NCBI RefSeq assembly: GCF_001886735.1
Contig: NZ_CP018080.1
Coordinates: 62,001-126,000 of the forward strand
Source of the DNA: Sulfitobacter alexandrii
GTDB taxonomy: Bacteria; Pseudomonadota; Alphaproteobacteria; Rhodobacterales; Rhodobacteraceae
DNA length: 64,000 nt
Direction of reading: 5' to 3'
The notes below the pieces were generated by a model that saw only the letters and a program-made list of their open reading frames with translations, made no database searches and was not told the DNA's origin. Each line of letters begins with the position of its first letter. The first letter of the stretch is position 1. This document shows positions 12,853 to 25,327 of the stretch, piece by piece. The translations under genes and the position numbers were made by a program.

Positions 12853-12883
12853 TTGTTTGCAAATGGTATACACTCGGTATTTT
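12853..12883 (+). promoter_or_regulatory. Promoter/operator region of the hydantoinase gene
   Basis: The motif ATGGTATACAC (12863-12873) is identical to the one in the opposite promoter near 12080. It lies between a possible -35 (TTGTTT, 12853-12858) and an AT-rich -10 (TATTTT, 12878-12883, spacing slightly long). The core elements are weak, but the repeated operator motif is clear. Confidence 0.5.
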
Positions 12884-12912
12884 ATTTAGCCAAACATTGG
12901 ATCGAGGTTGGC

Positions 12913-14307
12913 ATGGCAAATTCACGATACGACACGGTGATCACGGGTGGCACGGTGGTCACGCCCGAGGGCATCCGGCAGGCGGATGTGGCGATCGACG
13001 GGGGGCGGATCGCCGCCATCGGGGACGACCTTGCGGCACGGGGCACAGATCTGATCGACGCGGGCGACCGCATCGTTCTGCCCGGCGGCGTGGACACCCA
13101 CTGCCATATCGAACAGGTTTCGGGCGCGGGCCTGCTGAACGCGGACACTTTCGAGACCGCCACGCGGTCCGCCGCGTTCGGCGGCACCACGACGGTCGTT
13201 TCCTTTGCCGCGCAGCATCCGGGGCAGCGGGTGGGGCAGGTGGTAGCGGATTATGCCGTGCTGGCGGAAAAGGGCGCGATCACCGATTACGCGTTTCACA
13301 TGATCGTTGCCGACACGGGCAACGGCAATCTGGCGGAAGATATCCCCGCACTGATCGCGCAGGGGCACCGGTCGATCAAGGTTTTCACGACCTACGACAA
13401 GGTTCGGCTGGACGACAAATCCATCCTCGACATCCTCGATGTCGCGCGGCGGGACGGCGCGCTGGTCTGTTTTCATGCCGAGAACGACGGACTGATCCGC
13501 AACGCGACCGAGAAACTGCTTGCCGCGGGCAAGACCGCGCCGAAGTACCACGCGCAATCGCATCCCCGCGAAGCGGAGATCGAGGCCATCGACCGGATGT
13601 GCCGTTTCGCCGAATATACCGGGGCGCGGATCATGATCTTTCACGTGTCGACCCGGGAAGGCGCGGAGATCGTGCGGCGGGCCCGTGCAAGGGGCGTGCC
13701 GGTGGAGGCGGAGACCTGTCCGCATTACCTGTTCATGACGGTGGACGTGCTGGACGGCGAGAATCCGGCGCGGTTCATGTGCTCGCCTCCCCAGCGGACG
13801 ACGGACGATCAGGAAGCCCTTTGGGCGGCGCTGGCGGACGGCACCCTGCAACTGGTCACGTCGGATCACGCCCCCTACCGGATGGACGATACGGGCAAGT
13901 TCGTGCACGGGCGCGATGTCGCCTTCAACCGGATCGCGAACGGGATGCCGGGGCTTGAAACCCGGCTGCCGCTCATGTTCGACGCGATGGTCAGCCGCGG
14001 CCGCGCCGGGCTGGAAGCCTTTGCCGAGGTGACCGCCGCGGCGCCCGCCCGCGCGTTCGGGCTGGACCGAAAGGGCCGGATCGACGTCGGCTGCGATGCG
14101 GATATCGTGATCTGGGATCCGAAGCGGACGCAGACCTACGGCGCAGACGACCTGCATGACAACGTGGGCTACAATCCCTTTGAAGGGACAACGGTCACCG
14201 GCCTGCCGGTGCACGTCCTGTCGAGAGGCGAAACGCTGGTCAGGGACGGGGCGCTCGAGGTGACGGCGGGCAGAGGCACCTGGCAGCCCATGGTCTGGCG
14301 CGACTGA
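12913..14307 (+). CDS. D-hydantoinase/dihydropyrimidinase-like amidohydrolase
   Basis: A 464-residue cyclic-amide hydrolase that opens hydantoins or dihydropyrimidines to N-carbamoyl amino acids. Binuclear-metal ligands are visible: His63 and His65 (DTHCHIE), the carboxylated Lys156 (SIKVFTTYDK), His188 (FHAEN), His244 (FHVST) and Asp318 (TSDHAPY). The length and the order of motifs match the family. The ATG at 12913 has GAGG upstream; an in-frame earlier codon at 12853 lies within the promoter. It is transcribed away from its likely GntR regulator. With the racemase at 2521-3180 and the nitrilase-fold amidase at 1-766 it completes a hydantoin pathway. Allantoinase or phenylhydantoinase specificity cannot be excluded. 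Confidence 0.93.
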   Translation: MANSRYDTVITGGTVVTPEGIRQADVAIDGGRIAAIGDDLAARGTDLIDAGDRIVLPGGVDTHCHIEQVSGAGLLNADTFETATRSAAFGGTTTVVSFAAQHPGQRVGQVVADYAVLAEKGAITDYAFHMIVADTGNGNLAEDIPALIAQGHRSIKVFTTYDKVRLDDKSILDILDVARRDGALVCFHAENDGLIRNATEKLLAAGKTAPKYHAQSHPREAEIEAIDRMCRFAEYTGARIMIFHVSTREGAEIVRRARARGVPVEAETCPHYLFMTVDVLDGENPARFMCSPPQRTTDDQEALWAALADGTLQLVTSDHAPYRMDDTGKFVHGRDVAFNRIANGMPGLETRLPLMFDAMVSRGRAGLEAFAEVTAAAPARAFGLDRKGRIDVGCDADIVIWDPKRTQTYGADDLHDNVGYNPFEGTTVTGLPVHVLSRGETLVRDGALEVTAGRGTWQPMVWRD

Positions 14308-14395
14308 CGGTTCCTGCCCCGGTGGCGGATCCACGCCGCCGGGCCGGATGACGCGGATCGCGCTGCGGCGGTTCCGGCAGGTCTGGGCATTGCAG

Positions 14396-14473
14396 AAAAC
14401 AAGAAGGCGGCACCCGGGAGGAGGATGCCGCCATTTATGTGCGCCGGTCCGGGAGGAGGAGAAGACCGGCTAC
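14396..14473 (-). ncRNA. Predicted cuckoo/CcsR-type sRNA with two CCUCCUCCC hairpin loops
   Basis: On the minus strand two hairpins follow each other. GCCGGTC/GACCGGC (14443-14470) has a 14-nt loop containing CCTCCTCCC. After a 10-nt linker, GGCGGCA/TGCCGCC (14406-14432) has a 13-nt loop that again contains CCTCCTCCC. The second hairpin is followed by TTCTTGTTTT, a terminator-like tract. The exact anti-Shine-Dalgarno motif in both loops and the length of about 78 nt match the alphaproteobacterial cuckoo RNAs (CcsR in Rhodobacter, alpha-r14 in rhizobia), which are stress-related. No DUF1127 gene precedes it here, unlike the Rhodobacter locus. The ends are predicted from the promoter and terminator, not measured. 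Confidence 0.75.
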
Positions 14474-14479
14474 AGGTCG

Positions 14480-14508
14480 GATATAGCGCTAACGCTGCGG
14501 CTGCACAA
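14480..14508 (-). promoter_or_regulatory. Predicted promoter of the CCUCCUCCC-loop sRNA
   Basis: Minus-strand TTGTGC (14503-14508), a 17-nt spacer and TATATC (14480-14485) place a start near 14473, immediately before the first hairpin. It lies in the 50-nt space after the thiolase stop. Whether an alternative sigma factor (RpoH type, as for CcsR RNAs) reads it cannot be decided from sequence. Confidence 0.5.
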
Positions 14509-14557
14509 TAGACGCGCCATGCAATTTCTGCATTGCGGCATTGCATCCGTGGCGGAG

Positions 14558-15757
14558 TTACACCGCCTCCACAGCGATGGCGATGCCCTGTCCGACGCCG
14601 ATGCACATGGTCGCCAGCGCCTTCTGCCCCGGTTCCAGACCCAGCATCGCAGATCCGGTGATCCGCGCGCCGGACATGCCCAGGGGATGACCGAGCGCGA
14701 TGGCACCGCCATTGGGGTTCACACGGGCGTCGTCGTCGGCGATGCCAAGGTCGCGCAGGGTGGCCAGCCCTTGTGAGGCGAAGGCTTCGTTCAGTTCGAT
14801 GACCGAGAAATCCTGCTGCTTCAGTCCGAGCCGCGCCATCAGCTTTTTCGACGCGGGGGCCGGACCCATGCCCATGATGCGCGGCGGCACCCCGGCGGTG
14901 GCACCACCCAGCACCTTGGCAATGGGTTTCAGCCCATGTTTCTCGGCGGCCTCGGCGGAGGCGATGATCAGCGCGGCGGCGCCGTCGTTGACACCCGAGG
15001 CGTTGCCCGCGGTGATCGTGCCGTCCGCCTTGACGAAGGGTTTGAGCTTTTGCAGCGCTTCCGCCGTGGTGTCGGGGCGGGGATGTTCGTCCTGTGACAC
15101 AACGACCGGGTCGCCCCTGCGCTGCGGGATGCTGACCGGGACGATCTCTTTGGCGAGGCGTCCGTTTTCCATGGCGGCACCGGCCTTGTGCTGTGACCGC
15201 AGGGCAAAGGCGTCCTGATCCTCGCGGGCGATGCCGAAATCTTCGGCGACGTTCTCGGCCGTCTCTGGCATGGAATCGACGCCGTACTGGGACTTCATCA
15301 GCCTGTTCACAAAGCGCCAGCCGATGGTGGTGTCGAAGACCTCGTTGCTGCGCGAAAAGGCGGCGTCGGCCTTGGGCATCACGAAGGGCGCGCGCGACAT
15401 GCTTTCGACGCCACCGGCGACGATCAGATCCGCCTCCCCGGCGCGGATCGCGCGGGCAGCGGTGATGATCGCATCCATGCCCGACCCGCACAGGCGGTTG
15501 ATCGTGGCGCCCGGCACCGCATCGGGATAGCCGGCCAGCAGCAGCGACATGCGCGCGACGTTGCGGTTGTCCTCGCCCGCCTGATTGGCGCAGCCGAAAA
15601 GCACTTCGTCGATGGCCGACAGGTCCATGTCGGGGTTGCGGTCGGCCAGCGCCCTGAGCGGGATCGCCCCGAGGTCGTCCGCCCGGACGGAGGACAGTGC
15701 GCCGCCGTAGCGGCCGATGGGGGTGCGGATGTAGTCGCAGATATAGACGTCGTTCAT
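14558..15757 (-). CDS. pcaF: Beta-ketoadipyl-CoA thiolase
   Basis: A 399-residue thiolase that cleaves 3-oxoadipyl-CoA to succinyl-CoA and acetyl-CoA, the last step of the beta-ketoadipate pathway. The nucleophile is Cys90 (INRLCGSGMDA). The C-terminal half has NEAFA, the catalytic GHPLG histidine and the second cysteine in CIGVGQGIA. The start MNDVYICDYIRTPIGRYGG is characteristic of PcaF/PaaJ thiolases. It overlaps the pcaJ stop by 4 nt. With pcaI and pcaJ it forms pcaIJF, so PcaF is a better name than a generic acetyl-CoA acetyltransferase. Confidence 0.94.
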   Translation of the reverse strand: MNDVYICDYIRTPIGRYGGALSSVRADDLGAIPLRALADRNPDMDLSAIDEVLFGCANQAGEDNRNVARMSLLLAGYPDAVPGATINRLCGSGMDAIITAARAIRAGEADLIVAGGVESMSRAPFVMPKADAAFSRSNEVFDTTIGWRFVNRLMKSQYGVDSMPETAENVAEDFGIAREDQDAFALRSQHKAGAAMENGRLAKEIVPVSIPQRRGDPVVVSQDEHPRPDTTAEALQKLKPFVKADGTITAGNASGVNDGAAALIIASAEAAEKHGLKPIAKVLGGATAGVPPRIMGMGPAPASKKLMARLGLKQQDFSVIELNEAFASQGLATLRDLGIADDDARVNPNGGAIALGHPLGMSGARITGSAMLGLEPGQKALATMCIGVGQGIAIAVEAV

Positions 15758-23559: not shown

Positions 23560-25140
23560 ATGACCAAGACGATCACGCTGCTTTCAACCGCCATGCTGCT
23601 GTCCACGACGGCACTTGCCCAAGCGGAAACGCTGCGGTGGGCGCGCGCGGGTGACGCGCTGACGCTCGATCCCCATTCCCAGAACGAAGGGCCGACGCAC
23701 ACGATCCGGCACCAGATTTACGAGCCGCTGATCATCCGCGACATCTCGGGCGCGTTCGAACCGGCGCTGGCCACCGAATGGGCCCCCAAGGAAGACGACC
23801 CGAATGTCTGGGTGTTCAAGCTGCGCGAAGGCGTGAAATTCCACGACGGCGCCGACTTTACCGCCGAGGACGTGGTGTTCAGCTTCAACCGTGCCCAGTC
23901 CGAGAATTCGGACATGAAGGAACTGATCAACTCGATCACCGAGGTACGCGCGGTGGATGATTACACCGTCGAGATGGTCACCGACGGGCCGAACCCGATC
24001 CTGCCGTCGAACCTGACCAACCTGTTCATCATGGACAAGGGCTGGACCGAGGCGAACGACACCGTCGACGTGCAGGACTTCGAGGGAGGCGAACTGACCT
24101 ACGCCACCACCAATGCAAACGGCACCGGTCCCTACAAGCTGGAAAGCCGCGAGCAGGACGTGCGGACCGTCATGTCCCTGAACGAGAATTACTGGGGCAA
24201 GGATGATTTCCCGCTGGATGTGACCGAGATCATCTATACCCCGATCCAGAACCCTGCGACCCGTGTCGCCGCGCTGCTGTCGGGCGAGGTCGATTTCCTG
24301 CAGGACATGCCGGTGCAGGATCTCGAGCGCGTCAACAACGCGGACGGTCTGGTGGTCAAGCAGGCGCCCCAGAACCGGGTGATCTTCTTCGGCATGAACA
24401 TGGGCGCCGATGACATCGAAGCCGATAACGTCGAGGGCAAGAACCCGCTGGCCGACGCGCGCGTGCGCAAGGCGATGTCGATGGCCATCAACCGCGACGC
24501 GATCAAGCAGGTCGTGATGCGCGGCCAGTCGCAGCCCGCCGGCATGATCGCACCGCCCTTCGTCAACGGCTGGACCGAGGAGATGGATGCGGAATCCCGC
24601 ACGGACATCGAGGGTGCGAAGAAACTGATGGAAGAGGCCGGCTACGGCGACGGGTTCTCGATCCGGCTGGACTGCCCGAACGACCGTTACGTCAACGACG
24701 AGGCGATTTGCCAGGCGGCTGTCGGCATGCTGGGTCAGATCGGCGTGACCGTGAACCTGGATGCCAAGCCCAAAGCGCAGCACTTCCCGCTCATCACCGA
24801 CGGCAAGACGGACTTCTACATGCTGGGCTGGGGCGTGCCGACCTACGATTCCGAGTACATCTTCAACTTTCTGGTCCATGGCCGCGAGGATGACATCGGT
24901 ACGTGGAACGGCACCGGCTACGACAACGACGAGCTGGACGGCATGATCAAGAGCCTCGCGTCGAACACGGATCTGGAAGCCCGCAACGCCGATATCGCGG
25001 AAATCTGGCGCGTGGTGCAGGACGAGACCCTCTACATCCCGATCCACCACCAGGTGCTGAACTGGGGCATGAAGGACAGCGTCGGGATCGAGGTGGACCC
25101 CGAGGACCAGCCCAAGGTCAAGTACTTCACCATGAACTGA
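23560..25140 (+). CDS. Dpp/Opp-type periplasmic solute-binding protein, first of two
   Basis: A 526-residue SBP_bac_5 protein. The signal peptide spans about residues 1-22 (LLSTAMLLSTTALA, cleavage near AQAE). Landmarks are VKFHDGADFTAEDVVFSF, NANGTGPYKLE, TPIQNPATRVAALLSGEVDFL and DARVRKAMSMAINRDAI. It resembles the next gene's product throughout, suggesting tandem duplication. The ATG at 23560 is preceded by AGGGAG. It is followed by an intrinsic terminator, so it can be expressed without the rest of the operon. Position after pobR suggests an aromatic or aromatic-conjugate ligand. The family more often binds peptides, opines or glutathione. Confidence 0.93.
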   Translation: MTKTITLLSTAMLLSTTALAQAETLRWARAGDALTLDPHSQNEGPTHTIRHQIYEPLIIRDISGAFEPALATEWAPKEDDPNVWVFKLREGVKFHDGADFTAEDVVFSFNRAQSENSDMKELINSITEVRAVDDYTVEMVTDGPNPILPSNLTNLFIMDKGWTEANDTVDVQDFEGGELTYATTNANGTGPYKLESREQDVRTVMSLNENYWGKDDFPLDVTEIIYTPIQNPATRVAALLSGEVDFLQDMPVQDLERVNNADGLVVKQAPQNRVIFFGMNMGADDIEADNVEGKNPLADARVRKAMSMAINRDAIKQVVMRGQSQPAGMIAPPFVNGWTEEMDAESRTDIEGAKKLMEEAGYGDGFSIRLDCPNDRYVNDEAICQAAVGMLGQIGVTVNLDAKPKAQHFPLITDGKTDFYMLGWGVPTYDSEYIFNFLVHGREDDIGTWNGTGYDNDELDGMIKSLASNTDLEARNADIAEIWRVVQDETLYIPIHHQVLNWGMKDSVGIEVDPEDQPKVKYFTMN

Positions 25141-25163
25141 TCGTCCTTAGAACGACGGGACAA

Positions 25164-25191
25164 GGGGCGGCGCCGTGGCGTCGCCCTTTTT
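25164..25191 (+). terminator. Intrinsic terminator after the first binding-protein gene
   Basis: GGGCGGCG (25165-25172) pairs with CGTCGCCC (25179-25186; one G-T pair) across a 6-nt loop and is followed directly by TTTTT (25187-25191). It lies 24 nt past the stop codon and separates the first binding-protein gene from the rest of the importer operon. Confidence 0.8.
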
Positions 25192-25327
25192 CGATGCGGC
25201 GTCACGATGCCCGCCGGATGCCCCGCCCATGTCGCATGACACATCCGTGAACCGCCGAAGTTCCGATTGCTTCTGGCGGTGCAGCCGCTAGCCTGCTGCG
25301 GAACGACCACAGACCGGAGTGTCAGCC

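Follow-up and report, generated by a model that had tools for sequence, protein, structure and literature searches.

A cuckoo-type small RNA on a probable plasmid of Sulfitobacter alexandrii with a phasin-type TGC box at its promoter

The window analysed here, a 64-kb stretch of Sulfitobacter alexandrii DNA, is located on a contig of 205,668 bases within a 4.69-Mb genome. The contig encodes a RepA-type partition protein (with a score under the model's cut-off) and is therefore probably a plasmid. Between a thiolase gene and a convergent hydantoinase-like amidohydrolase gene, the minus strand carries two tandem hairpins which each display CCUCCUCCC in the loop, the second being followed by a U-rich end (table 1). 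The pcaF annotation of the thiolase gene is present in the closest relative found, Sulfitobacter sp. THAF37. It is this thiolase gene that lies upstream of the RNA, and not a DUF1127 gene as at the CcsR loci.

Table 1. Features of the small RNA locus and its neighbours (window coordinates)
Feature	Position	Strand	Remarks
Amidohydrolase gene, hydantoinase-like	12853..14307	+	convergent
U-rich 3' end TTCTTGTTTT	14396..14405	-	
Hairpin 2, doubles as terminator stem	14406..14432	-	CCUCCUCCC in loop, 14424-14416
Hairpin 1	14443..14470	-	CCUCCUCCC in loop, 14459-14451
-10-like TATATC	14480..14485	-	17-nt spacer from TTGTGC
-35-like TTGTGC, leading into conserved second half-site GCAGC	14494..14508	-	TTGTGC 14508-14503; GCAGC 14498-14494
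PhaR-type box TGCCGCAATGCAGAA	14526..14540	-	2 mismatches to TGCTGCNNNGCAGCA; 1 to the plasmid-cassette form TGCTGCAATGCAGAA
Thiolase gene, pcaF, 3-oxoadipyl-CoA thiolase	14558..15757	-	ends 17 nt before the box

A preliminary description of this locus had proposed an RNA of the cuckoo/CcsR type, about 78 nt long, with two hairpins on the minus strand, a promoter with 17-nt spacing and a U-rich end, and each of these elements could be located. The predicted ends (5' near 14474 and 3' near 14396) give a length of ~79 nt, compatible with that proposal. For the 83-nt segment, the predicted folding energy is -36 kcal/mol (z = -5.84), a value equalled by none of 200 shuffles, and hairpin 2 together with TTCTTGTTTT is the only terminator-like site within 14300-14620. 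The loop sequence CCTCCTCCC has exactly two copies in the entire window, those in these minus-strand loops; however, shuffled sequences contained 0.77 copies on average and at least two copies in 17/100 cases, so that the count by itself is not significant.

Searches of the 64-kb window with Rfam revealed no match at the gathering score. At a loose threshold, both ar14 (RF02344) and CcsR1 (RF02791) aligned over their full length with the RNA, but the scores of 32.4 bits and 26.9-30.3 bits are below the respective gathering values of 58.8 and 65.3. Arrays linked to DUF1127 in the same genome likewise fall below both cut-offs, which suggests that the Rfam models are narrow here. We rely on a leave-out model (R2) trained on 20 orphan RNAs of the genus to which the window belongs, with the window itself and the plasmid copies excluded; the training RNAs were taken as chromosomal because of their mrp/DUF1127 neighbourhoods, where visible. 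With R2, the window RNA is the top match of the 64 kb (32.0 bits, E = 2e-6; next match 13.1 bits), and all 14 plasmid-type loci supplied were found with 40-57 bits. This homology to same-genus cuckoo RNAs beside DUF1127, along with the tandem hairpins, their loop motif and the U-rich end, places the RNA in the cuckoo family in the wider sense. The second, weak match of the model in the window (25118-25199, plus strand, E = 0.23) is probably an unrelated terminator.

Multiple alignment of 33 sequences (A1) showed both loops to be invariant, partly by construction since the genus rows had been picked by the exact loop pattern. The 11 plasmid relatives that were obtained by BLAST, without such selection, and read all retain both loops. 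In hairpin 2, changes on both sides were observed in 6/9 pairs among the 33 relatives. RNAalifold recovered hairpin 2 alone from A1; hairpin 1 was therefore examined sequence by sequence, and a stem of at least six pairs was found in 73/94 hairpin pairs versus 363/1880 in random flanks. Thus, whereas one check proposed in the preliminary description, a covariance-model score above threshold, gave values below the ar14 and CcsR1 gathering scores as it did for the DUF1127 arrays of the same genome, the other, conservation of both loops in relatives, was borne out. The identity of the window RNA as cuckoo-type, belonging to neither RF02344 nor RF02791, is well supported, and the element has the appearance of a real regulatory sRNA of an established two-hairpin type.

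Several known systems resemble this RNA. CcsR1-4 of Rhodobacter sphaeroides (RF02791) also consist of hairpins with CCUCCUCCC loops; unlike them, the window RNA does not follow DUF1127, is part of a plasmid cassette and has its own promoter-like element. The ar14 RNA shares the two tandem CCUCCUCCC hairpins and, in Sinorhizobium medicae, also a TGC box, but differs in that the window RNA scores below the ar14 gathering value. Loop motif, tandem hairpins and U-rich end are common to the cuckoo RNA family, which is said to be a thermodynamic-matcher family of Reinkensmeier and Giegerich; to our knowledge, neither a plasmid cassette nor a PhaR-type box is part of its definition. MmgR/ar8 of Sinorhizobium meliloti, which has an anti-Shine-Dalgarno-type loop and is tied to polyhydroxybutyrate (PHB) and phasins, is similar in loop type and different in architecture, a likeness drawn by description only.

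Further copies are present in the same genome. Besides the window, the exact tandem motif was detected at two further places, namely a DUF1127-linked array at C1:1262961 and, ~500 nt upstream of this array, an orphan. The chromosomal region (C1:1262900-1263560; L004:3900-4560) thus comprises a canonical DUF1127 gene with its cuckoo-hairpin array and an orphan two-hairpin cuckoo RNA just upstream; it adjoins an mrp-type ATPase gene, and the arrangement recurs across the genus. A second DUF1127 array lies at C1:2019020 (R2 score 30.9 bits), and its promoter contains two adjacent PhaR-type boxes. At the first array no good box was seen by eye, and its relative L029 has one with 4 mismatches. Over the promoter and RNA sequence compared, L029, a locus of the same genus, is identical to Sulfitobacter sp. 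EhC04 (L249). Both DUF1127 proteins were confirmed by Pfam. In the region of the second array (C1:2019020-2019780; L014/L059), the DUF1127 gene is accompanied by another small ORF and by three units containing CCTCC, which score 42.4 bits with ar14 (the units were not folded singly). Two other loci gave sub-threshold CcsR1 matches: L007 (C6:341278-341353; 27.4 bits), with a weak R2 match of 20.1 bits, and L008 (C2:35621-35699; 27.0 bits), with no R2 match at E up to 1. In another genome of the collection (G149), a cuckoo RNA is found on two contigs (L184:3948 and L185:3911) and is identical across 87 nt, as if duplicated or moved.

The RNA region of the window was used to query plasmids by BLAST (E ≤ 10). 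Of the 219 records obtained, many were short or weak matches, and the best corresponded to an unannotated stretch of ~150 nt on roseobacter plasmids. When a plasmid copy was used as the query, 23 records (its own included) were found at E ≤ 1e-3, 17 of which cover at least 80% of the query; a phage search with the plasmid copy gave no match. Among the 11 plasmid copies that were read, seven follow ParB/DUF3768/DUF6878-type genes (six of these preceding a strawberry-notch gene), two are flanked by virB11 and virD4/relaxase genes, one follows a mexB gene, and one, in Sulfitobacter sp. THAF37, follows pcaF as in the window. Scanning a genome collection for the box plus two exact loops yielded 44 loci, 36 with Rhodobacterales names and 8 from Ensifer/Sinorhizobium. 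By tblastn, 21 of them have the strawberry-notch gene and/or the gene that precedes the RNA on those plasmids, 8 have the mrp neighbourhood of the chromosomal-type orphan, and 15 have neither. We conclude that the window copy belongs to a lineage of ~150-nt cassettes, consisting of box, promoter and RNA, on roseobacter plasmids. The preliminary description had the RNA sitting alone in a new context; it was right that no DUF1127 gene lies upstream, but the locus is not singular, because cuckoo RNAs lack a DUF1127 gene just upstream in 21 of 70 family loci (see below) and what appeared to be isolation is a recurring plasmid context.

The promoters of the scanned loci share a layout. Of the 44 loci, 36 are non-rhizobial, and 33 of these contain TTGTGC, with a distance of 30-33 nt from the start of the box to its own start, and in all 33 relatives having TTGTGC a GCAGC at +10 places a half-site over the -35/spacer region. 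The window promoter fits the same arrangement (32 nt from box start to TTGTGC), its box having 2 mismatches. A strict sigma-70 consensus scan of this promoter region found no promoters. Upstream of the RNA, the plasmid relatives have the form GCTGCAATGCAGAAA and the window has GCCGCAATGCAGAAA, which differs by one change. Box and promoter are conserved despite quite different upstream genes (strawberry-notch plasmids and mrp contexts), and also in contexts of type IV secretion genes, there with more mismatches.

To place the box in the family, we surveyed 199 genomes, 168 of which match a model (R1) that was trained on a set including the window and plasmid copies. The best match was taken from each of 70 of the 168 genomes, from the top of the list, spanning 69 genera with two loci in the window's genus; one genome (G102) was left out because its match lies near a contig end. 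Loci were partitioned by a home-made DUF1127 profile with 27 seeds. Where DUF1127 is absent just upstream, the box precedes the RNA in 15/21 loci within 1 mismatch and in 16/21 within 2. Directly before the RNA in DUF1127-linked arrays it was found in 0/49 cases; around the start of the DUF1127 ORF, in a 340-nt interval picked after this first, negative test, it is present in 35/49 within 1 mismatch and in 41/49 within 2. Pooled, 50/70 loci have a box within 1 mismatch, versus 0.36 expected from dinucleotide shuffles of the same intervals (means of 0.12 for orphan and 0.24 for DUF1127-linked loci). Three control patterns, one reversed and two rearranged, gave no hit within 1 mismatch and at most 3/21 and 4/49 within 2, and random 215-nt intervals of the same loci contained the box within 1 mismatch in 1.7% of cases.

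At a tolerance of 1 mismatch the box is absent from the remaining 20 of the 70 cuckoo loci, and where a genome has several copies the additional ones are mostly without it as well: among 13 extra loci from six genomes (L180-L192), two of which (L183 and L191) repeat loci already among the 70, it precedes the tandem pair within 1 mismatch in two (L181 and L191). In a set of 28 loci from the window's genus, which shares one genome with the 70, 21/27 orphans have the box, and L034, counted among the misses, does have a box that is readable in the sequence and was lost through the choice of interval. Outside the family, an Rfam-confirmed ar14 of Sinorhizobium medicae carries the TGC box. Several Sinorhizobium/Ensifer cuckoo arrays (L238, L242, L252, L253, L255, L261, L268 and L272) have TGCTGC-N3-GCAGCA upstream, without TTGTGC.

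The same motif marks genes of PHB storage. In Rhodobacter sphaeroides the site of PhaR, a PHB-sensing repressor, is CTGC-N3-GCAG. In the genome of the window, GCTGCAATGCAGAAA has an exact counterpart in the promoter of a phasin gene (phaP), and a further box with 2 mismatches lies just before phaR; Pfam identified the two proteins as Phasin_2 and PHB_acc_N, respectively. The perfect sites listed for this genome are three, namely C1:820854, phaP and the orphan cuckoo promoter, and sites within 1 mismatch number 60, versus 13 for the reversed pattern. At every one of the 21 phaR loci examined in the genus, TGCTGC-N3-GCAGCA is present one or more times within 1 mismatch; 17 loci contain three such sites. 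In other genera of the family this holds for at least one box at 23/30 phaR loci, with none at 7/30, and in other families for 0/9. What this analysis adds to the preliminary description is this TGC box, common to phaP/phaR and to cuckoo/DUF1127 promoters. The preliminary description had suggested that regulation of the window RNA could differ; since its promoter shares a degenerate form of the box with other cuckoo/DUF1127 promoters, regulation may instead be shared.

PhaR was found in 194/199 genomes. Cuckoo RNAs without a box are present in the phaR-less complete genomes G066 and G196 and in G185, whereas the phaR-less G145 has no RNA; in G168, a 92% complete genome in ~590 contigs, the RNA is preceded by a box although no phaR was found. 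This pattern is suggestive of a link to PhaR and is not proof of it. A different reading is that the RNA is a cuckoo sRNA under the stress sigma factors RpoHI/RpoHII, the TGC box serving another regulator that also acts at phaP/phaR or only tuning basal expression. CcsR promoters in Rhodobacter sphaeroides are RpoHI/RpoHII-dependent, and this dependence, a window -35/-10 far from the sigma-70 consensus, the box of G168 and the seven phaR loci of the family without a close box are all in its favor. On the other hand, the box is the motif found around both phaP and phaR in the same genus, and both complete phaR-less genomes lack it. We consider this reading unlikely, though deserving of real weight.

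It is very improbable that the hairpins are mainly the 3' untranslated end of pcaF, terminating the thiolase operon and leaving a stable stub freed by processing. CcsR RNAs behind DUF1127 are released by processing, pcaF stops shortly before the box on the same strand, and hairpin 2 has the sole terminator-like score nearby; however, promoter and box are kept behind the different genes of the strawberry-notch and mrp contexts and, with more mismatches, of the secretion contexts. An inert repeat or a chance pair of GC-rich hairpins is strongly disfavoured and hardly credible, because, although two CCTCCTCCC copies are not rare by chance, the folding z-score, the leave-out model match, the loops kept in all plasmid relatives and the covariation of hairpin 2 argue against it.

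The reading that we favor, and regard as fairly probable, is that of a plasmid-borne cuckoo-type sRNA of ~79 nt with its own promoter, controlled by PhaR and acting through anti-Shine-Dalgarno loops. We infer PhaR control of the window RNA, as well as its transcription, the direction of control and the targets, from sequence features. The RNA would be transcribed from its own promoter, which belongs to a class common among the cuckoo/DUF1127 promoters of the family, with a PhaR-type box and a half-site over the -35/spacer region. At phaP, repression by PhaR is relieved when PHB accumulates; the promoter layout suggests that PhaR would likewise repress the RNA until PHB accumulates. The window box is a candidate PhaR site that shares its motif with phaP/phaR, and its 2 mismatches make control of this copy less certain than that of its relatives. 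Once made, the two loops, which copy the anti-Shine-Dalgarno sequence, would bind GGGAGG-type ribosome-binding sites and lower translation of target mRNAs.

In phaR start regions (L085-L108 and L193-L222), the ribosome-binding site often reads GGGAGG, a sequence to which the cuckoo loop is complementary. Near the phaR start, GGGAGG was found in 29/47 loci (those of 60 given in which the start-placing motif was found) versus 2/72 window ORFs of at least 300 aa, an excess that is a lead only, as this crude background includes spurious ORFs. The phaP gene of the same genome has no GGGAGG site. The sites at phaR hint at a possible feedback on PhaR.

More broadly, and tentatively, with slightly less than even confidence, cuckoo sRNAs and their DUF1127 partners may form a branch of the PhaR (PHB granule) regulon in most Rhodobacteraceae and some Sinorhizobium/Ensifer, in which PHB would release PhaR and switch the RNAs on, while plasmids spread a self-contained cassette of ~150 nt. 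The RNAs so induced would cut translation of mRNAs with GGGAGG sites, possibly including phaR itself. If the orphan cuckoo copies are controlled by PhaR, their level would reflect how much carbon is stored, and their action would slow carbon use or PHB synthesis. CcsR RNAs affect C1 metabolism and pyruvate dehydrogenase, and these effects are compatible with such feedback. Given the phaP/phaR-like DNA mark at the promoter, RNAs of this family may respond to the carbon store of the cell, and a mobile plasmid copy would let the plasmid tap into the carbon control of its host.
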